This document shows, piece by piece, positions 51,153 through 63,161 of a DNA stretch of 64,000 nucleotides. Positions within the stretch are counted from its first letter, which is position 1; each line of letters opens with the position of its first letter. The stretch is taken from assembly GCA_951812755.1 (NCBI GenBank), contig OX638329.1, positions 3,666,522 through 3,730,521 on the forward strand, in the 5' to 3' direction. The translations under genes were made by a program, and so were the position numbers. The stretch comes from an uncultured Latescibacterota bacterium (GTDB lineage Bacteria > Latescibacterota > UBA2968). The notes beneath the pieces are model-generated. The model saw nothing but the letters and a program-made list of their open reading frames with translations. It was not told the origin of the DNA and did no database searches.

Positions 51153-53561
51153 TTATCCCTGCCTTTGGGCATAAAAATCTCGCCCGTGTTTTTGGCAATA
51201 ATCACAAATGATAGGCAAAAAGACATCGGCATATTTCTCAACTTTCACAGGACCGACACCGGGAACTTGCCCGAATGCTTCCACTGATTGTGGTAATTGG
51301 GCAGCCATTGCTCGCAACGTCCTGTCGTGAAAAACAACGAACGCTGGTACGTGTTCAGCCTCCGATAACTCTCTGCGTTTGGTGCGAAGTTGCTCGAAAA
51401 GTTCCTGGCTATATCCGTTTGATTCTTCGGATGTCGTATCATAAACAGGTTCTTCAGTCATGTGGTCTGCCGAAGCCACTGGAAATCCCCAAAACTGCAT
51501 TTTGCCTCTGATCACCTCACGCCCATCAGGCCTCAGCTTGAGACTGCCGTGTTGTAGATCTCGATTAAGAAGTCCCTGTTGGATGAATTGTAGTACCAGA
51601 TGTTTCCATTGTGTTTTGTCATATTCTCTGCCGGTGCCATAGGTGGAGAGTTGGTGGTGCCGGTTCTTAACAATCTTCTTTGCTTTTGAACCGAGTAATA
51701 CATTGATAATATGCTCTACACCGAAAATTTCCCTTGTTTCGACAATACAGGAGAGGAATTTGCGAGCCTGCTCCGTTAAGTCAACTCGCTCCATTTCCGC
51801 CTGGCGACAGTTGTCACACATTCCACAATTTTGTTCTTCGTAGTGTTCTCCGAAATAAGCTAATAACCCTTTGCGGCGGCACTCTATAGAAGTTGCCCAC
51901 TCAACAAGCGTCTGCAATCGTTCCAACCGCCCTTCTCGCTCAGATGGCGCACCTTGATCTATGAAATATTTGATGGTGTCAACATCGCCGTGATTGAACA
52001 GTAAAAGGCAATCCGCTCGATGTCCATCCCGACCAGCACGCCCAATCTCCTGATAGTAAGACTCAGGTTCCTTTGGCAATCCTACATGTAGTATGAAACG
52101 TACATCTTCTTTATCAATCCCCATTCCAAAAGCTATTGTTGCGGCTATCACCTGAGTGTCCCCATTGATGAAAGCTGCCTGATTCTGCTTACGGGTTTCG
52201 CTATCCAGGTCTGCATGATAGGGAAGTGCCGAGATCCCACGTTCAACTAAATTGCGAAACAGCGATTCAACTTGTTTCTTTGTCTGGCAGTAGATGATAC
52301 CGGATTCATCACGATGGGTATTGAGAAATGCAAGCGTCTGCTGTAGTACCTCCTCTTTCAATTCAATACCCATGAAGAGATTTTTCCGGTCAAAACTGGC
52401 AATGAATTCATTTTCCGCCTGAATTTTGAGCAATTGTTTGATGTCCTGTTGAACCCGTGGCGTAGCAGTAGCTGTCAGCGCGACACAGACAGCGTTCCTG
52501 AATCGTTCACGAACGGAAACCAGTTGTCGATACTCTGGACGAAAATCGTGGCCCCACTGTGAAATACAGTGTGCTTCATCAATTGCAAGACAGACCACCT
52601 GAGACTCATCGAGCATCAACAAAATCTCAGGTCGCAGGAGCGTTTCAGGAGCAACGTAAAGTAGCTTAATTTCACCCCTTTTGACACGCTGCATTGTGGC
52701 AACATATTCTGAATGGCTAAGGGTACTGTTGAGAAAAGCAGCGCAAACATCCCGCTGTTGCAATTGCATCACCTGGTCTTGCATAAGCGAAATCAACGGA
52801 GATACGACAACGGTTAGGCCATCGAAGATAAGGGCGGGCAGTTGATAGCAGAGCGACTTCCCACCCCCAGTTGGCAGAACAATCAACGCATCGTGCCGGT
52901 TGAGAATGTGGCTGATTATTGTCTCCTGCAAAGGTCGGAACTGTTCATACTCGAAAACGTCATTGAGCACCTCTTCGGCTGTTTGATGCAGCGTTTGAGG
53001 TAGAGGAGATTCTACTTTACGTGAGTGGAATGTATGTCCGCCAAACAGAAATATTTGCCCTTTTGTCAGACGCACAATGACGTCATTCTGCGTCTGCTGC
53101 TCGTCGTTTTCGTCAATATGAATCACGGGGAGATCCTGTGCCGTGAGCGAGGCTCCGATCAGTTTGCTTCGATGGCAGTGCTCCGGCTTTCCTTCGCTAC
53201 ACATGAGAGCAATACATTGTTGTTGAGCAAAGGCCGTCTGGAGACGTTCAATTCCCCTCTGATAGACTTCGGTATCCTTTACCTTTTCGTAATCCACCTG
53301 CCCTTTCGCATCATAACAAGTTTCGTCATCAGGGTGCCCGCCCAACGTGTCGCCCATGAACACATACCGAATCCGGTGCTGTTGCAGCTTCACCTCCAGA
53401 GCCTCTTTGGAAAATTCGGGTTTATAGCGAGAATAGGGAGCTGAGCGCACATCAACGAGGTAGGCAATTTCATGTTGTTGTAGTACTTCGATGAATTGCT
53501 CAATGGAACGGCTACCGTAACCGATGGTGTAAATTGGGATGGATGCTGATATTTTTTTCAT
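51153..53561 (-). CDS. DUF488-RecQ helicase fusion
   Basis: 802 residues. Residues about 8-150 are a DUF488 domain (IYTIGYGSRSIEQFIEVL, LVDVRSAPYSRYKPEF, CSEGKPEHCHRSKLI). From about 205 it is a complete RecQ: EQFRPLQETIISHIL, Walker A LPTGGGKSLCYQLP, AIDEAHCISQWGHDFRPEY (DEAH), ATIAFGMGIDKEDVRF and QEIGRAGRDG. A zinc/RQC region follows (CGMCDNCRQAE), and a C-terminal HRDC domain (about 715-795, LSEAEHVPAFVVFHDRTLRAMA). It should be a 3'-5' DNA helicase. The DUF488 fold is of unknown biochemical role. A fusion, not a mis-call: there is one uninterrupted frame and no internal start with a ribosome binding site was noticed. It converges on GGT with a 48-base gap. Confidence 0.9.
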   Translation of the reverse strand: MKKISASIPIYTIGYGSRSIEQFIEVLQQHEIAYLVDVRSAPYSRYKPEFSKEALEVKLQQHRIRYVFMGDTLGGHPDDETCYDAKGQVDYEKVKDTEVYQRGIERLQTAFAQQQCIALMCSEGKPEHCHRSKLIGASLTAQDLPVIHIDENDEQQTQNDVIVRLTKGQIFLFGGHTFHSRKVESPLPQTLHQTAEEVLNDVFEYEQFRPLQETIISHILNRHDALIVLPTGGGKSLCYQLPALIFDGLTVVVSPLISLMQDQVMQLQQRDVCAAFLNSTLSHSEYVATMQRVKRGEIKLLYVAPETLLRPEILLMLDESQVVCLAIDEAHCISQWGHDFRPEYRQLVSVRERFRNAVCVALTATATPRVQQDIKQLLKIQAENEFIASFDRKNLFMGIELKEEVLQQTLAFLNTHRDESGIIYCQTKKQVESLFRNLVERGISALPYHADLDSETRKQNQAAFINGDTQVIAATIAFGMGIDKEDVRFILHVGLPKEPESYYQEIGRAGRDGHRADCLLLFNHGDVDTIKYFIDQGAPSEREGRLERLQTLVEWATSIECRRKGLLAYFGEHYEEQNCGMCDNCRQAEMERVDLTEQARKFLSCIVETREIFGVEHIINVLLGSKAKKIVKNRHHQLSTYGTGREYDKTQWKHLVLQFIQQGLLNRDLQHGSLKLRPDGREVIRGKMQFWGFPVASADHMTEEPVYDTTSEESNGYSQELFEQLRTKRRELSEAEHVPAFVVFHDRTLRAMAAQLPQSVEAFGQVPGVGPVKVEKYADVFLPIICDYCQKHGRDFYAQRQG

Positions 53562-54093
53562 ATCACGTCGTTGAATCTAACATGCGTTCAAATTCATCAA
53601 GATTGGAAACCTGTATCGCCGCACGGTGCATTGGACAAATGCAACAATCAGAACTCAAGCAAATATCAGGCCAATGTCACAGCATCGCGCGACAAATGGT
53701 ATGGACAGCATCAAATAACCCTTATTATGCCTTCAATATGCTGTATCGCGCCCTTTTTTTCAACTTGAATTTAAGGATTGTCTATTTGGCTCAGAACTGT
53801 CTCTGTATATTTTGAGCGATGAATGGGCGGTCATGTGAAAGATATGTACCACTTGCCTATTTGTCCGCCGCACTGTAAAACCCTCAAATGAACTGCTACG
53901 CAGTTTGTACATCGCTCACTCGCGTTTTTTCTCTGGTTGATTGCGTAAGTCAGTTTTTTAAAAAAATACACCGCGCAAGTTGGCGCGGCGTAGCGTGTTA
54001 GCTTATCTTTTGATCGTGTAATTTCGCAACATCCTCTGGTTTGCGAGGGTCGCCTTTTTGCCAATCTATAAAAGAAAATTTGAGCTGAATCGT
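53562..54093. other. 532-base intergenic region with a partial repeat and a terminator
   Basis: No gene is recognised. At 53888-53912 there is a fragment of the dispersed palindromic repeat (AACTGCTACGCAGTT-TGTAC). At 53958-53988 there is a minus-strand terminator. Short frames on both strands (for example 53571-53768) show no homology and no ribosome binding site. Confidence 0.5.
53958..53988 (-). terminator. Intrinsic terminator
   Basis: On the minus strand CCGCGC, loop CAACTT (approximately), GCGCGG is followed by TGTATTTTTTT. It lies 105 bases beyond the stop of the EF-hand gene at 54094 and is correctly oriented to end its transcript. Confidence 0.75.
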
Positions 54094-55482
54094 TTAATTT
54101 GTGATTCTAAGTGCTTTAAGACTTTGGATTTGTTCTGCACTCATCATAGACTCTATGAGATGATATGTTAATGCTTCTACCACTACTCTGCGGCCCTCAC
54201 CCTGGCCAGCCAGATCAGCATAGTCCGTTATAAGATGATCTACTGACAGCGTGGAATCTTTTTTGAGAGCATCCAATTTCGCGATCAAAGTCGCTCGGCC
54301 ATTAACATAATCCTGGGTATAACCCACAACATTAGTCGAGAGACCACAAAGAATGGCTTGTTGATCTGGGGTTAATACCTGGTCGATCAAAGCCGCAGCC
54401 CCCCCACGACTCACCGATGTTCGATCTACATATCGAAAGCTTGAAAACCCAAAATAGTTGCCAATTTTACCTCTTGGCAAAAAGAGCGCGTCATCTAAAT
54501 CACCCGTTGCCCAGGCAATGAACTTGCTCGACACTTCCTGCATCAATTTAGCATCATCACGGCTAAGTGCGTTAAATTGAGTTCTTGCTTCTGCAGCATA
54601 TCGCAATGAGGTATTTTGCATCTGATCTACCGTGACAACGCCACGACGAATATCTTCTAAGTATTGCACCTGTTCAGAGCTTAAAAGAGGTAGTAATTTT
54701 GCATAGTATTGGGCCGTTATGACCGTAATGGTGCCTTCGTATTCCCCAATTGACTGTATCAAGTTCATCACACGAACATAGTCCATTGTAACGTTATTTT
54801 TTAAACGCCACAATTCATCGACCAACAAAACGCGGTCTTCCAAAAATCCGTTGATTGCCGTTCGATGCTCGGCCAATAATTCATATAAAAATGACCGTTG
54901 AGTATCATCCAAAAGCTCCAAAACTTCCTTATAGACTGCCCCCCGAAAAGAGACATCTGCATTGTTCCCCTCGCGTTCCCGAATCTCGTTCCTGAGTGCT
55001 GCAAAACCAAAATAATTTGCCACCTCACCAATGGGTTCATAATGTGCATCTTCAACCGTGCCGGTAAGCCACACCAACAATTTTGATGCCGTTTCAACAT
55101 AAACATGATCAACACCAACAAGCTCTTCTTTTGCACAATTTTGTTGTTCTATAGGTACAACCTGCCAATCATCTGGTAGCTTGTAAAACGCAGACGGCAA
55201 GGATGTGTTACCATTCGTACCATATGCTCTAACAAATATCAGAAAGTCAGGAAAATCTACTTGCCCATTTTGATTAAGATCAAATTGGGCTTGATCGGTG
55301 CCAAAAGCACCTGCAAAGGCGAGAAAATCGAGAAAGTTTGTTTCACCATCGGCATTAAAGTCGGTTGTTATATCTGACGCTTGAAGCGATAAGGGATTAG
55401 AGTGCAACTTTCCAACGGGTCCAATGCACATCAAAAACACAAAACCTATTTGCATACAACACCGAAACCATCCGTTTGCCAT
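54094..55482 (-). CDS. Secreted EF-hand protein with a duplicated domain of unknown function
   Basis: 462 residues from the ATG behind GGAGG. A signal peptide (MQIGFVFLMCIGPVGKLHS) is followed by two dockerin-like EF hands (TDFNADGETNFLDFLAFAG, DLNQNGQVDFPDFLIFVRA). Two helical domains come next that are copies of each other: SKLLVWLTGTVEDAHYEPIG-EVANYFGF and SKFIAWATGDLDDALFLPRG-KIGNYFGF, each ending in a stretch like LTPDQQAILCGL or LDDTQRSFLYELL. These endings faintly resemble the LTxxQ region of Spy/CpxP-type chaperones, but the match is not firm. The function is unknown. It is divergent from the PhyH gene at 55608 (125-base gap). Confidence 0.78.
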   Translation of the reverse strand: MANGWFRCCMQIGFVFLMCIGPVGKLHSNPLSLQASDITTDFNADGETNFLDFLAFAGAFGTDQAQFDLNQNGQVDFPDFLIFVRAYGTNGNTSLPSAFYKLPDDWQVVPIEQQNCAKEELVGVDHVYVETASKLLVWLTGTVEDAHYEPIGEVANYFGFAALRNEIREREGNNADVSFRGAVYKEVLELLDDTQRSFLYELLAEHRTAINGFLEDRVLLVDELWRLKNNVTMDYVRVMNLIQSIGEYEGTITVITAQYYAKLLPLLSSEQVQYLEDIRRGVVTVDQMQNTSLRYAAEARTQFNALSRDDAKLMQEVSSKFIAWATGDLDDALFLPRGKIGNYFGFSSFRYVDRTSVSRGGAAALIDQVLTPDQQAILCGLSTNVVGYTQDYVNGRATLIAKLDALKKDSTLSVDHLITDYADLAGQGEGRRVVVEALTYHLIESMMSAEQIQSLKALRITN

Positions 55483-55607
55483 GCCATTACCTCCAGGTTT
55501 CACTTTCAATAAACTTTGTTTATCGGTTTTGACATTTTCTTATATTTTAACAAGGGGAACTATCGTCCGACATTAATCATCTTCCCATTTAAAACAACGG
55601 AGCAAAA

Positions 55608-57792: not shown

Positions 57793-57879
57793 CTACTTTA
57801 CGGTATATCTCACAATCACTTCATTGTCCAAAATGAGATTCGACGACCATATAAATTGTGCATCTTGCTCTGGGTCATC
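57793..57879 (-). pseudogene. Duplicated C-terminal fragment of the 60488-61645 protein
   Basis: The 28 codons ending at 57793 encode a near copy (26 of 28 residues) of the C-terminus of the EF-hand protein at 60488, including DAQFIWSSNLILDNEV and RYTVK. The join lies exactly at the stop of the metallophosphoesterase gene, so a homologous gene once stood here and was deleted down to its last 87 bases. There is no start codon or ribosome binding site. Confidence 0.8.
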
Positions 57880-60460
57880 TTTTGTCTATCCGATAAGAAT
57901 AGCTCACCTCGCCATTTGTCCGTCCAGCACCTTCATCCCAGGGCAGATAAGCTCTGATGTATTCCACCAAAACATCATCAGGAGAAACAGTCACACGCAA
58001 ATGCCCCGAATTTCCCAGGACAGTGCCACTCAAATACCCCCCTTCAAGGGCTATCCTATTACCGTTCCGATAATTGGTATTACTGGGTTGTGGCAACACC
58101 TGATACACCACCCCATCTAACTCCTGCTTCACAAACACATGGTCATGACCGTGAAAAAAAGCCGACACATTGTTCTCCACCATCAATTGGTGAATAGGCT
58201 TGCCCCATCCCGCGCGTTTTGTGTCAAACCCCCAACTGTCGTCTCTATTCTTTCCGCCCCATTCGTAATACGGAGCCATCTCAATACCGCCACGTCCTTC
58301 TCCTGTATGAATGCCCCCCACCAGGTGATGTGAAAATATAAACTTAAAGGTCGCATCACTCCCCTCCAGCACCTGCCGTAGCCACTGGTATTGCTTCTCG
58401 CCAAGGGTCCAGCGCCAGTTATCCGATACGCCACCGCGTTTGGGCTTTGTTGTCGTGTACCAATAAGGGTCAATCACAACAAATAGCGCGTCTCCCCACG
58501 ACCACGAATAATAACTCTCTCTCACGCCAACAAATTGCTCTTCATCGGAATCCCCGGAATAGAACACATCTGGCACGGGATTGGGATAATATTTTTTACG
58601 CGCCATTGTGGCCCAAACAGCCACATTGTTCGGTGTGCCATTCAATGACCACCCCTCTTCCCCATCGTGGTTGCCATTGACGAGAAACAGAGGAATAGAA
58701 TGCGTAATCTTCCCAAAATTTCCGCGCTCGTACAAATACCGACGCTCAACAGTTGCGTAATTGGGTGCGGGTCTTCTGGTATCCGTAAGTGGTTCTGAGT
58801 GTTTGTTGCACATAAACGTATCACCGAGGTCAATAAGAAAATCGGGCTGGTATGCTGCCACATTTTCCAGCGATCGATGGTAGAGTCCCAGGCTGGACCG
58901 ACCATCTAAATGTGCGTCAGCCTGAATCGAAAAGGTAAATGTTGTCCCAGGTGGACGATATGTGTGAAAAGTATATTCCCCTCGCCTTTTGAACTCTGTT
59001 TCTCCTGCGCGCCGGTAGCGCGTTCGATAATAGTACTGCGTGTTAGAAAGCAATCCCTCCATCGCAATTTCAATCGGTGTATCTCGCGACCCCTTCACCA
59101 CAGATGTCTGATTTGTGTAAACACCTGATTCTGTTCCGTATTCCAGATAAATCTCCAGGTCTGCTGATGGAACCACATTGACAGTTACGGACTTATCGGT
59201 TGGTCGTCCCAACAACTCGGATGCCACAAACAAAGAATCGGAATCCGTATCGGGTGGATCGGTTGCACTGGGGACACCTGAATCACTCGGCACACCGCCC
59301 TGACCGGACATTCCACCACCTTCCACCGCAACACTCCCATTGGATCGGTAAGTCTGTCGCGTGATATTGCCACTGGCATCTACAAATTGAAAATCATAAT
59401 CCCCATCGGGCCTGAGAAAATAGGCAATCGCATGTGTTCCACCGTTTGCCTCATACGTAAGCCGATACCAGTCATCTGCCCCCTTCACAAAATCTGTGAT
59501 ATTTGCCCGCATCCCCGTGCCCGAAGGCCGAACGGGCCTTGTGCGGGGCTGGTTGGCGACTTCTTCTCCCCTGGCCAGTTCAATAACACCCTTAAATCCT
59601 CCGTTGACATAGGGATAATCCAGCGTGCTGTGATAGTGATAATTTCCATTTGCATCGAAATGTCCGTTCAAATCGTCCAGGTTCGTTGCCGGGGTACCAT
59701 CGGCTTCATTGAGTCCATACATCGGGTAGCCATCCAGCGCATACGCAATGGGGACAGCATCGCCCACTTTTTCTATAAGAAACAAAGGCGCGATATGGTA
59801 GTGATAGTCGTCCGCACGACCGGCATGCCCTCCAAATTCATCCAACTCCCCAGCCAAATACGTGTCTGTGCGGCCATTTTGTTTGATGGGATTAAAAATG
59901 GGCACGCCATTAATAGCCAGACCAATAGCACCCCGAAACAATGTCTGGCTTGCATAAACTGGCACATCTGCAACCGCGGGTTTCAATGGGATCTGCCATG
60001 CATTATCACCCTGATAAGGCTGCGGCAGAGGCACCTGCTGATTCCAGGCTGTAATCCCCACCATCATGCGGTGATCGGGAAAAGCGTTGGACTCGATATA
60101 CAAAAAATCATCATCCCACTGGATGTTCAGCCGGTCTGCAAAATGCTGGAATGCTTGTGCGCTCACAGGGGCATCGCCCTGTGTGCCGCCAGAGGATCCA
60201 GGCTGTCCAAATGCAGAGATAAAGACCAGAAAGTCGAGAAAATCCACCAAACCATTCTGGTTTAGATCGAACTGTACCTGCTGCGAACCAAATGCAGCCG
60301 CGAACATGATAAAATCAACGAAGTCCGTTTTTCCGTCATCATTGAAATCCGTCACATCACTCTCATCGCTGTAGAGCCTGTGCCCTTCCGCATAACCGGC
60401 ACACAACACACTCATCACGCAAAAAACCAATCCGAACATCCTCAATTGTCGCCTCATCAT
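57875..60460 (-). CDS. Secreted EF-hand / YHYH-domain / metallophosphoesterase protein
   Basis: 861 residues behind AGGAGG. A signal peptide and two dockerin-like EF hands (TDFNDDGKTDFVDFIMFAA, DLNQNGLVDFLDFLVFISA) are followed by a YHYH domain (about 110-300; DDYHYHIAP, NYHYHSTLDYPY). After a low-complexity linker (GMSGQGGVPSDSGVPSATD) comes a purple-acid-phosphatase-type FnIII (LEIYLEYGTESGVYT). A calcineurin-like phosphoesterase closes it: D-x-H in IQADAHLDG, IDLGDTFM, GNHDGEEGW, FSHHLVGG and HGHDHVF, all five metal motifs intact. An exported phosphatase is inferred. The two halves look like a fusion of separately known families. Confidence 0.88.
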   Translation of the reverse strand: MMRRQLRMFGLVFCVMSVLCAGYAEGHRLYSDESDVTDFNDDGKTDFVDFIMFAAAFGSQQVQFDLNQNGLVDFLDFLVFISAFGQPGSSGGTQGDAPVSAQAFQHFADRLNIQWDDDFLYIESNAFPDHRMMVGITAWNQQVPLPQPYQGDNAWQIPLKPAVADVPVYASQTLFRGAIGLAINGVPIFNPIKQNGRTDTYLAGELDEFGGHAGRADDYHYHIAPLFLIEKVGDAVPIAYALDGYPMYGLNEADGTPATNLDDLNGHFDANGNYHYHSTLDYPYVNGGFKGVIELARGEEVANQPRTRPVRPSGTGMRANITDFVKGADDWYRLTYEANGGTHAIAYFLRPDGDYDFQFVDASGNITRQTYRSNGSVAVEGGGMSGQGGVPSDSGVPSATDPPDTDSDSLFVASELLGRPTDKSVTVNVVPSADLEIYLEYGTESGVYTNQTSVVKGSRDTPIEIAMEGLLSNTQYYYRTRYRRAGETEFKRRGEYTFHTYRPPGTTFTFSIQADAHLDGRSSLGLYHRSLENVAAYQPDFLIDLGDTFMCNKHSEPLTDTRRPAPNYATVERRYLYERGNFGKITHSIPLFLVNGNHDGEEGWSLNGTPNNVAVWATMARKKYYPNPVPDVFYSGDSDEEQFVGVRESYYSWSWGDALFVVIDPYWYTTTKPKRGGVSDNWRWTLGEKQYQWLRQVLEGSDATFKFIFSHHLVGGIHTGEGRGGIEMAPYYEWGGKNRDDSWGFDTKRAGWGKPIHQLMVENNVSAFFHGHDHVFVKQELDGVVYQVLPQPSNTNYRNGNRIALEGGYLSGTVLGNSGHLRVTVSPDDVLVEYIRAYLPWDEGAGRTNGEVSYSYRIDKR

Positions 60461-60487: not shown

Positions 60488-61645
60488 CTACTTTACGGTA
60501 TATCGCACAAGCACTTCATTGTCCAAAATGAGATTCGACGACCAGATAAATTGTGCATCGTGCTCTGGATCATCAAATAAATCCGTAAAATTCGTATATG
60601 CGGGTTTGTTGTTCACTCCAACTGTCGCATTCGTATAAGTATAGGCTTGTGGCCAGGCCGAATCATCAAAGTCGCTATCGTACCAGTTAGACGGGACGGG
60701 GTAGTGCATTGCGTAAAATTGACTGCCATCATTTGTATCACGCGTGTCACAGCCGCCGGACAAATGCTCGGTTTCCTTCTCAACAATACAGCTCAAATCT
60801 CTAATGGGTGCAATATAGAAAGTCTGCGCTTTCCATTGATCATTTGTAATCGCAACAGTATTTCCATTGGCATCGTGAAAACTCGCTACCAAACCGCCGT
60901 CTCCTGGATGATGTAAAAAATTGCGATTAGCTTCTGTGCCAAGCCCCAGATTCTCTTCCCAATCAACCAACTTCATTGCAATCGCAAATGGCCGCTTAAC
61001 CTTAAACCGAACCACGCTCGAATTAAACGGTGTGAACGGAACTGAATCAACTGCGATCAAGGTACCATTCACATATAATTCAAAGTAATTGTCGGCAAAG
61101 ATATATCCCGTGATCGTCTCACCATCTTTATCGATCTCTACGACTGACACAACCGACAAATTGAGAGCACTGCTATTGGGAGTAAAAACGCCTGTGCATT
61201 GGTTATACATATCCGATGCATGTCTCGCGGTTGTGTATTGCGTTTGGGCAGGCATAATCCACACATTGCCATCGTCAGATGTAATTGTCCCCACACTACT
61301 TATACGCCCCCCGGGACAATTGAGCAGATTGGAAATTGTTTGCGTTGCAAAACCCTGAGTGCTGACACCGAGAACAGGATCAGAGATGGTTTGCCCAAAT
61401 GCAGTGGCAAAAATTAAAAAATCTCCAAAATCTACAGTTCCACTTGCGTCCAGATCGTAAATCGCATTTTGCCCAACTCCCGATTGCCCAAATACAGCTA
61501 CAAAAAGCAAAAAATCGGCAAAATCGACCTTGCCATTCCCATCAAAATCGAGAAGTGACGCCTTCAAAGTGATTGGGCTAAAAATACAAAATAACGCGAA
61601 GACCGCGCCCAAAGCCCATTTTGATTTCAATAATTTTAAGAACAT
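60488..61645 (-). CDS. Secreted EF-hand protein of unknown function
   Basis: 385 residues from the ATG behind GGAGGAG. A signal (WALGAVFALFCIFSPITLKAS) and two dockerin-like EF hands (LDFDGNGKVDFADFLLFVA, DLDASGTVDFGDFLIFATA) are followed by an all-beta region. It contains ADNYFELYVNGTLIAVD and DSDFDDSAWPQAY, which recall jelly-roll carbohydrate-binding modules such as those attached to glycosidases, but no enzyme motif is recognised. The C-terminus is duplicated as a fragment at 57793-57879. It lies between two YHYH-domain genes on the same strand (28-base and 67-base gaps), so a shared operon and a shared extracellular role are likely. Confidence 0.75.
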   Translation of the reverse strand: MFLKLLKSKWALGAVFALFCIFSPITLKASLLDFDGNGKVDFADFLLFVAVFGQSGVGQNAIYDLDASGTVDFGDFLIFATAFGQTISDPVLGVSTQGFATQTISNLLNCPGGRISSVGTITSDDGNVWIMPAQTQYTTARHASDMYNQCTGVFTPNSSALNLSVVSVVEIDKDGETITGYIFADNYFELYVNGTLIAVDSVPFTPFNSSVVRFKVKRPFAIAMKLVDWEENLGLGTEANRNFLHHPGDGGLVASFHDANGNTVAITNDQWKAQTFYIAPIRDLSCIVEKETEHLSGGCDTRDTNDGSQFYAMHYPVPSNWYDSDFDDSAWPQAYTYTNATVGVNNKPAYTNFTDLFDDPEHDAQFIWSSNLILDNEVLVRYTVK

Positions 61646-61711
61646 GATGTCTGTCTCCTCCGCACGGATATACCCGCTCAAGTTATATGTATGTAATCCC
61701 TGAATACCAGA

Positions 61712-63025
61712 TCAGTAACGGCGCGGTGGACGCCTTCTAAAACCCGGACCGCCAGGGCCACCGACCCGACGTTGCCTGAACGAAGGATCTGGTGTCCCCC
61801 ATACACAGCGGGGCATGTACGGGTAATCCTCGGTCAGATAATAATGATAGATCCCTTCTGAAAACTCGGGCGTCACCCCAAATCGCCCATTGCACTGGTC
61901 GAGGTCGCCCGATCCCTCAACAAATTGCCAATCTTCCCGAAACGTGCCATCGTATTCTCCCCCAGGTCCGCTTTCTCGTGTACCCGAACGCAATTCCCAA
62001 CTTCCCTCAGGCGCATTGGATCCGCTGGCGACATAGACCGGAAAACCGTCGGCAGCATACCCGACCAATACCATCTCCTCGCCCTCCGTCCCACTCGTAA
62101 TTTCATTTATCAAGCTGTGCGGCACGCCGTGGTAGTGGTAAATACCCGTTGGCTGAACATGCGCGTTATTGCAATCTGTACCCAGCCATTCAAACCGCGC
62201 ATTGCCGCTCAATCGGCGTGCCATACCCGGGGTCAGTGCCTCGTAATTCCACTGCCGCTGGTTGCGATAACTCTCGGCAGTATCGCGTTCGAGTTTGATG
62301 CCCTCGAGCGTGATACCAAATACAGCCATTTCAGTGGGCGTGTTCGTCTTTTGGGGATTGCGGGGAATGCGCCAGGTCTGCGTCACTGACCAGATCATGT
62401 TCGGATTTCCCCGATTGGGAAACATTCCCGTCGCATGGGCAGGAATGCCATTGGTCGTGTATTCGATAGTATTTTCCAGAACGCGGGTCTGAACCTCCGG
62501 AACCTCTACCGGATCCTCTTTGCACTCCCAACCAACTTTCGGCGAAAAATCAGCGACAAGCGTCAGGTCGGCGGGATTCTGTTCAGGTACGTACACCTCG
62601 ATCCAAACCGTATCCGATGCTTGTTGCCCCGATTCCATCTCGGCACGCACTTCAAACAGCAATGTCTCTGCACTACTGACATCGTCAGGAACGCTAACAG
62701 TCGTCTGAAGCGCGTTTGTTGAACTCATCGCCGCCGCTGTCCCGCGCACTTGCCGCCACACGACACGGGCACCCGGACCATTGGTAACCGTGGCGTTGAG
62801 ATCCACCTGTGCCCCCGGAAGCACAATCCGACCGTAGCCAGCCTCCACGGATAGCGCACTCAGAGTATCCGGCATTTCAGGTGGACACGTTTCACCAAAT
62901 TGAGCAGCCAACACCAGAAAGTCAGAAAACCCGACCTCGCCATCCTTATCTAAATCCGCACTACACGCATTCGTTTTCGAAGCGAACAAAAAACATGCGA
63001 CAATCACAAGCCCGACAATCCTCAT
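61712..63025 (-). CDS. Secreted YHYH-domain protein with one EF hand and an Ig-like domain
   Basis: 437 residues from the ATG behind AGGAGG. A signal peptide (RIVGLVIVACFLFASKTNA) leads to one dockerin-like EF hand (ADLDKDGEVGFSDFLVLAA) and a PKD/Ig-like domain (GPGARVVWRQVRGTAAAMSS). The YHYH domain (about 200-410) has TGIYHYHGVPHSLI, VGYAADGFPVYVASG and EGIYHYYLTEDYPYMPRC. The second copy of the motif is YHYY. The C-terminus is Arg/Gly-rich (GGPGGPGFRRRPPRRY). YHYH proteins are extracellular and often oxidative or metal-binding by association; the reaction is not known. An in-frame upstream extension is the shadow of the Tat leader at 63045. Confidence 0.83.
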   Translation of the reverse strand: MRIVGLVIVACFLFASKTNACSADLDKDGEVGFSDFLVLAAQFGETCPPEMPDTLSALSVEAGYGRIVLPGAQVDLNATVTNGPGARVVWRQVRGTAAAMSSTNALQTTVSVPDDVSSAETLLFEVRAEMESGQQASDTVWIEVYVPEQNPADLTLVADFSPKVGWECKEDPVEVPEVQTRVLENTIEYTTNGIPAHATGMFPNRGNPNMIWSVTQTWRIPRNPQKTNTPTEMAVFGITLEGIKLERDTAESYRNQRQWNYEALTPGMARRLSGNARFEWLGTDCNNAHVQPTGIYHYHGVPHSLINEITSGTEGEEMVLVGYAADGFPVYVASGSNAPEGSWELRSGTRESGPGGEYDGTFREDWQFVEGSGDLDQCNGRFGVTPEFSEGIYHYYLTEDYPYMPRCVWGTPDPSFRQRRVGGPGGPGFRRRPPRRY

Positions 63026-63044
63026 GAAGTGACCTCCTGTATAG

Positions 63045-63161
63045 TCAACTGTTAGGGACATCCAGCCCCAGAACAAGCGCGCCCATTGCACCAAGTCCGG
63101 TCAGGGGAATAAAATCCCTCCGGTCAATAGAAACAGGCGATTTATGTGTGTATCTGGTCAT
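63045..63161 (-). pseudogene. Orphan Tat signal peptide (38 residues)
   Basis: A frame from 63161 encodes a basic start, then RRDFIPLTGLGAMGALVLGL, a textbook twin-arginine leader, and stops five residues later at 63045. No mature domain follows, and the next gene starts 20 bases on in another frame. It is the stump of a Tat-exported enzyme. A functional standalone peptide is unlikely. Confidence 0.6.

Follow-up and report, generated by a model that had tools for sequence, protein, structure and literature searches.

The window, by which the whole analysed stretch of 64,000 nucleotides is meant, carries on its minus strand a gene that joins a DUF488 domain to a RecQ helicase. DUF488 of the subfamily found in the window is called DUF488a here, and DUF488b is a second, diverged DUF488 of about 162 aa. 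The gene and its parts are located as follows:

51153..53561, minus strand: DUF488a-RecQ fusion gene, 802 aa, one open frame from ATG to stop (translation, Pfam and NCBIfam)
53160..53507, minus strand: DUF488 domain, residues 19-134 (PF04343, 88.8 bits)
53169..53201, minus strand: C121-x-E123-x-x-P126-x-x-C129-H130-R131 loop, presumed active site (alignment and domain model)
53015..53016, minus strand: fusion joint, between Lys182 and Val183 (DNA and protein comparison with L090, L091 and L092)
52974..53063, minus strand: linker, residues 167-196 (low-confidence stretch of the full-length model)
52446..52937, minus strand: RecQ DEAD/DEAH helicase domain, residues 209-372 (PF00270)
52023..52352, minus strand: RecQ Helicase_C, residues 404-513 (PF00271)
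51804..51989, minus strand: RecQ zinc-binding domain RecQ_Zn_bind, residues 525-586 (PF16124)
51495..51794, minus strand: RQC domain, residues 590-689 (PF09382)
51207..51407, minus strand: HRDC domain, residues 719-785 (PF00570)

A preliminary description had reported, without naming a strand, a single 802-residue frame in which DUF488, with a C-x-E-x-x-P-x-x-CHR motif, is linked to a complete RecQ-RQC-HRDC helicase. The frame is indeed present, on the reverse complement, its motif reads C121-S-E123-G-K-P126-E-H-C129-H130-R131, and Pfam gives DEAD, Helicase_C, RecQ_Zn_bind, RQC and HRDC in this order. The match to PF04343 lies well above the curated cut-off of 22.2 bits and all nine invariant DUF488 residues are kept, while the NCBIfam model TIGR01389 (recQ) is passed with 698.4 bits (cut-off 640.2). 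Among 23 aligned rows, the helicase residues K235, D328-E329-A330-H331, R508 and R511 are invariant, as are the zinc cysteines C561, C579, C582 and C585. Judged by score, domain set and key residues, this half of the protein is a RecQ helicase; it has all the domains of RecQ proteins of the TIGR01389 type but differs from them in bearing an N-terminal DUF488, at the place where its nearest relatives bear a DuOB domain. Identity with DpdF of the Dpd system was considered and rejected, as the NCBIfam DpdF model gives 199.4 of 550 bits, far short of the cut-off, and the PADLOC DpdF matches on the window protein span the generic RecQ core.

The model of the full-length fusion reaches a pTM of 0.59, with a poor DUF488 part whose placement on RecQ is not confident. 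Its pLDDT falls below 50 over residues 106-191, with means of 26-37 in 161-190, and the poor DUF488 part probably reflects the alignment, in which only five of 23 rows cover DUF488.

Just before the start codon of the fusion, a 23-residue tail at 53566-53634 (minus strand) is 91% identical to a repeated family that has 38 matches in the window genome and no Pfam name and looks repetitive or mobile. A near-complete member of this family (about 320-336 aa) abuts or neighbours the fusion in G001, G003, G007 and G009. As a functional partner, this upstream frame was discarded because of its 38 copies, its missing Pfam name and the presence of only the 23-residue tail in the window. Further along, four neighbouring proteins on the minus strand (54094-55509, 57875-60460, 60488-61681 and 61712-63094) have a common N-terminal repeat of the type D-x-N-x-D-G-x-x-D-F-x-D-F, which is dockerin- or EF-hand-like by eye.

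Occurrence of the fusion in the genus

The window genome, G000, consists of one contig of 6.53 Mb, and was compared with ten further genomes of the same genus. DUF488a is present in seven of these 11 genomes (E <= 1e-40) and the gene is missing from the other four. The join of DUF488 into RecQ is visible in six genomes. Four of them (G000, G001, G007 and G010) have the full-length fusion; in G006 it is interrupted by a contig end, and the C-terminal RecQ piece opens another contig. The sixth, G009 (locus L088, contig C138), has an intact DUF488 followed by the first ~88 residues of RecQ and an internal deletion, so that most of RecQ is missing, which is either real decay or a collapsed assembly. 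The seventh genome, G003, is cut inside DUF488, and the fusion is not visible there. The linker exists in two variants, G001, G007 and G010 being without about 20 further linker residues.

The preliminary description had allowed that no other genome might show the fusion and that the frame might be an assembly error. Its recurrence in six of the 11 genomes, together with the two linker variants, rules out such an error. Both halves appear to be under purifying selection: the dN/dS ratios (Nei-Gojobori, 15 pairs) are well below 1, at 0.08-0.33 for the DUF488 part and 0.09-0.29 for the RecQ part, where pairs involving G009 rest on 80 RecQ codons.

The DUF488a operon and the origin of the joint

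Relatives of the fusion were sought with a DUF488 alignment in one genome per species, across 84,980 species. The scan returned 54 loci, its recall being limited by the use of two short peptide patterns in the search. Nine of them (L132-L140) were dropped as truncated, partial or distant DUF488, leaving 45 (L087-L131). The preliminary description had proposed collecting other DUF488-RecQ fusions and adjacent genes, and both exist. In 33 of the 45 loci a separate DUF488a gene is followed by DUF488b and then by a RecQ whose N-terminus bears a domain of some 210 residues, DuOB (dual OB-containing) in Pfam. Two of these 33 are incomplete, L127 being cut in RecQ and L131 having broken frames. Four further loci carry a fusion to RecQ, namely L087, L088 and L089, which correspond to genomes of the window genus, and L130, a separate fusion. 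Six have DUF488a with neither DUF488b nor RecQ nearby (L112, L116, L119, L121, L123 and L124) and two stop at a contig edge (L128 and L129); RecQ is thus not an obligatory companion of DUF488a.

The operon DUF488a-DUF488b-[DuOB-RecQ] is found in most Poribacteria and some Chloroflexi, and the DUF488b and RecQ genes overlap by 4 nt in ten of 11 operons checked. Within the poribacterial phylum, 60 of 84 genomes have DUF488a (E <= 1e-50). For the Chloroflexota, 15 of the 38 matching genomes were fetched and their neighbourhoods read: two have the full RecQ operon, two have DUF488a-DUF488b-DuOB without RecQ, one has a shortened fusion of DUF488b and DuOB, and the make-up of the remaining ones is other or unresolved. 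The RecQ proteins of L103, L109 and L122 have extra C-terminal copies of the HRDC region, with three HRDC domains by Pfam in L103. In the Anaerolineae copy of the operon, L131 (5992-10576), the frames of DUF488a and RecQ are the broken ones, and two small genes, toxin-antitoxin-like by eye, sit between DUF488b and RecQ.

Comparison with the operon places the joint within the window protein. In L090, DUF488a ends with ...LTKGQMLLFGEHTFHSRKQYR-stop and the linker between DuOB and RecQ reads ...MESPPPRTLPQTPLKILKDVFG, and the window protein reads ...LTKGQIFLFGGHTFHSRK-VESPLPQTLHQTAEEVLNDVFE across the joint. It follows the tail of the stand-alone DUF488a, ...FHSRK, up to Lys182 and continues from Val183 with the former DuOB-RecQ linker. 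By this comparison, the window protein corresponds to DUF488a without its last three residues plus the DuOB-RecQ linker, with DUF488b and DuOB gone. Counted from the coordinates, about 1,142 bases are missing relative to L090, and as this is a multiple of three plus two, two formerly different frames were brought into register.

In the RecQ tree, from which L103 was excluded by the program, the five fused rows group together (SH-aLRT 99) and branch next to the poribacterial L091 (99), within Poribacteria. L130 has a separate origin, so that at least two origins of DUF488a-RecQ are required, and G034, which shares its class with the window genome, retains the unfused operon on a branch of its own. 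Vertical descent of RecQ in the genus was rejected, as G002 and G008 carry a different RecQ clade and the fused RecQ nests in Poribacteria. In the window the fusion is bordered by a GGT-like gene, which in G004 and G002 directly adjoins sulfatase or related cluster genes, the fusion being absent. Compared at the level of sequence, the window fusion is a derived, collapsed form of the operon, and horizontal transfer from Poribacteria followed by deletion fits best. On this account, the operon common in Poribacteria entered an ancestor of the window genus, where about 1.14 kb were deleted, starting three codons ahead of the DUF488a stop and reaching into the DuOB-RecQ linker; this removed DUF488b and DuOB and placed DUF488a in frame with RecQ.

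Exchange of helicases and predicted chemistry of DUF488a

Another example of a fusion to a helicase is L130 of the Chloroflexi genome G064, a DUF488a-RecQ with a C-terminal HTH_40. A third one, L207, is an 811-residue frame of DUF488a, NERD and a UvrD-like helicase in G482, one genome among the 84 surveyed in the poribacterial phylum. Its NERD (24.8 bits) and UvrD (35.1 bits) scores are both modest and above cut-off. The genes flanking it on both sides match those around the L091 operon with 65-76% identity, which indicates that, downstream of an unchanged DUF488a, another helicase took the place of DUF488b-DuOB-RecQ. Such fusions are rare: among 400 Chloroflexota genomes drawn, one of the 38 with a DUF488 match has a fusion, and in 299 Pseudomonadota genomes none of the 103 DUF488 matches lies in a frame of more than 571 aa. 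The DUF488 family itself is widespread, occurring in six of 14 control genomes.

The fusions also resemble each other in what accompanies them. Neither DuOB nor a second DUF488 match was found in the assemblies of G064 and G482, where gaps of metagenome-assembled genomes (MAGs) could explain the absence. Among the seven same-genus genomes with DUF488a, DuOB is missing from five (G001, G003, G006, G007 and G010) and another DUF488 from three (G001, G006 and G010), again possibly through MAG incompleteness. G000 and G009 each hold a separate, complete DuOB-DUF488-DUF488 trio.

All 42 aligned DUF488s, DUF488b included, share the invariant residues T12, G14, D37, R39, C121, E123, C129, H130 and R131. 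The domain model built from these 42 sequences (pLDDT 88.9, pTM 0.84) appears Rossmannoid; in it, strand 117-121 terminates at C121, a loop comes next, and R131 begins helix 130-141. Its leading matches among PDB structures are N-domains of tetrapyrrole and diphthine methylases (Z to 9.8) and two dual-specificity phosphatases, KAP (Z 9.0 over 126 residues, 3.4 A) and laforin (Z 8.4 over 129 residues, 3.3 A), Z scores of 8-10 being only moderate. Foldseek gave no match of the domain model to the PDB at E <= 0.001. A sequence search against solved structures gave nothing meaningful, its top profile hits, at E 0.37 and 0.84, being unrelated and at chance level. RapZ is not among the 50 structure matches listed, which is uninformative either way.

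A 2023 study of the rhodanese-phosphatase superfamily by Burroughs and Aravind reportedly grouped DUF488 with RapZ-C and DUF4326, included diphthine synthase-like methylases in the superfamily, and is said to have predicted a role in DNA-end processing. The mix of methylase and phosphatase matches is as expected if DUF488 belongs there. The DUF488a model would resemble this superfamily in its predicted Rossmannoid fold and in the position of its invariant Cys, which closes a strand and is followed by an Arg-bearing helix; it differs in the direct fusion to RecQ and in its loop, which is C-x9-R (C121 and R131 are ten apart) and not the canonical CX5R. Because of this longer loop, which the DUF488 sub-clade of the superfamily may have, DUF488 is not filed as a canonical phosphatase or rhodanese.

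According to the preliminary description, the biochemical function of DUF488 was unknown and the link to RecQ tied it to DNA repair or defence. The literature searched holds no established DUF488 biochemistry; a function had been proposed already, reportedly in the 2023 superfamily study, in the Pfam model named 'DUF488-N3a, active' and in the PADLOC candidate system PDC-M45. As for the second, an involvement of DUF488 in work on DNA is supported by comparison with the operon, the second RecQ fusion and the NERD-UvrD-like fusion, which together weigh more than a single fusion would; the locus does not decide between repair and defence.

The best reading is that DUF488a is a putative cysteine-based, phosphatase- or rhodanese-like enzyme acting on DNA exposed by the helicase. 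RecQ would unwind DNA, and the tethered DUF488a, a predicted Rossmannoid enzyme whose invariant Cys-Glu...Cys-His-Arg loop would be placed like the P-loop of cysteine phosphatases, would process a terminal phosphate, sugar or adduct on the exposed strand or end. In the unfused system, DuOB, predicted to bind nucleic acid, and DUF488b may help to bring DUF488a to DNA. That the collapse of the operon and this DNA-processing mechanism together explain the fusion has a somewhat better than even chance.

The RecQ fusions, and a NERD-UvrD-like fusion at the operon's own site, suggest that the DNA helicase partnered with DUF488a is interchangeable. Once DUF488a is tethered to a helicase directly, DuOB and DUF488b would be dispensable, which would explain why both were lost in each of the three fusions seen. 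Because three helicase fusions that arose separately are all without these two parts, it is tentatively proposed that DUF488a is a portable DNA-processing enzyme normally delivered by DUF488b and DuOB, and that linking it to a DNA helicase of any kind, RecQ in two cases and NERD-UvrD-like in one, takes the place of this module. If this holds, the fusions would be natural minimal versions of PDC-M45-like systems that expose which part is the effector.

In open-licence PMC, no paper with both DUF488 and RecQ was found, and the open-licence literature likewise gave no description of the RecQ fusion, of operon collapse as its origin or of the NERD-UvrD-like exchange; the component parts and the related PDC-M45 are already known. 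PMC11687729 was set aside as a DUF488-helicase paper, since the term in the passage concerned is DUF4880. The passages of PMC9674854 on Methanoperedens plasmids place DUF488 and UvrD/Dna2-like helicase genes in one neighbourhood. This resembles the operon in that a DUF488 gene neighbours a helicase gene, but the genes are separate, the plasmids are archaeal, and those passages describe no fusion (PMC9674854). One polypeptide, its operon relatives and an independent case with another helicase make up a compact system for testing effector, cysteine and helicase separately.

The helicase-free trio and competing explanations

PADLOC lists a candidate defence system, PDC-M45, with DuOB as part A, DUF488a as part B and DUF488b as part C. 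The DUF488 half of the window protein matches PDC-M45B with 2.7e-50 over residues 9-167, and each of the three parts has its counterpart in the ancestral operon; the window gene differs from PDC-M45 in being without parts A and C and in having gained the RecQ tether. These two parts are not beside the fusion, the only DuOB and the other two DUF488s of the window genome forming a complete trio about 1.18 Mb away (G000:C1 2542399-2544087; PDC-M45A, B and C at 301, 285 and 219 bits). The poribacterial DuOB is detected by Pfam and not by PDC-M45A. The fusions suggest how such a candidate defence trio could be simplified.

These matches raise an alternative in which the trio defends against phages and its RecQ form, armed with a helicase, attacks or modifies invading DNA. 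It is compatible with the enzymatic reading, from which it differs in the target. Besides the PADLOC entry and the complete trio in the window genome, it draws on two same-genus genomes (L072 and L073) whose trios have type I restriction genes nearby, and on plasmids: among 94 places in 87 records, six loci were inspected, four of which have the profile-confirmed trio, three of these beside CRISPR or CBASS genes. The RecQ-linked form, however, is chromosomal in the loci seen, and the presence of DUF488a in 60 of the 84 poribacterial genomes resembles a conserved house function more than a patchy defence. In addition, metabolic and sulfatase-like genes lie around the fusion in the window, where inspection of the listed frames by eye revealed no known defence gene. 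The DpdF matches (199 of 550 bits) reflect the generic RecQ core. The wide poribacterial presence favours a house function for the RecQ form, and the neighbours of the trio in the inspected loci favour defence for the helicase-free form. Taken as a whole, the antiviral alternative is rather unlikely.

It is improbable that DUF488a is a sensor that binds a nucleotide or an ADP-ribose-like ligand and switches the helicase on or off, and not an enzyme on DNA. DUF4326 is a family related to DUF488. It occurs with SLOG, Macro and NADAR domains and, in the passages concerned, is proposed to process ADP-ribose derivatives (PMC9503650), which would suit a sensor, as would the binding of CTP by an archaeal ParB-CTPase fusion with DUF488-HTH described in the relevant part of PMC12704722, although the ParB fold is the expected binder there. 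SLOG, Macro and NADAR are, however, absent from the 16 proteins scanned with Pfam, and the invariance of the Cys, Glu, Cys, His and Arg of the loop in all 42 aligned DUF488s argues for chemistry and against a sensor.

Least probable, by a little, is a chance fusion in which a neutral deletion joined the genes and left a tether without a function of its own: a single deletion in one genus, a shorter linker in three genomes, the eroded RecQ of G009 and the missing gene in four of the 11 genomes are in line with it, but both halves show purifying selection, the second DUF488a-RecQ and the DUF488a-NERD-UvrD-like fusions arose elsewhere with the same losses, and the fused copy is the sole TIGR01389 match above the cut-off in G000, G001, G007 and G010.

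As a separate observation, a RecQ-like helicase domain lies at G000:C1 5421435-5422511 within a frame of about 1733 residues, which has counterparts of similar length in many relatives.
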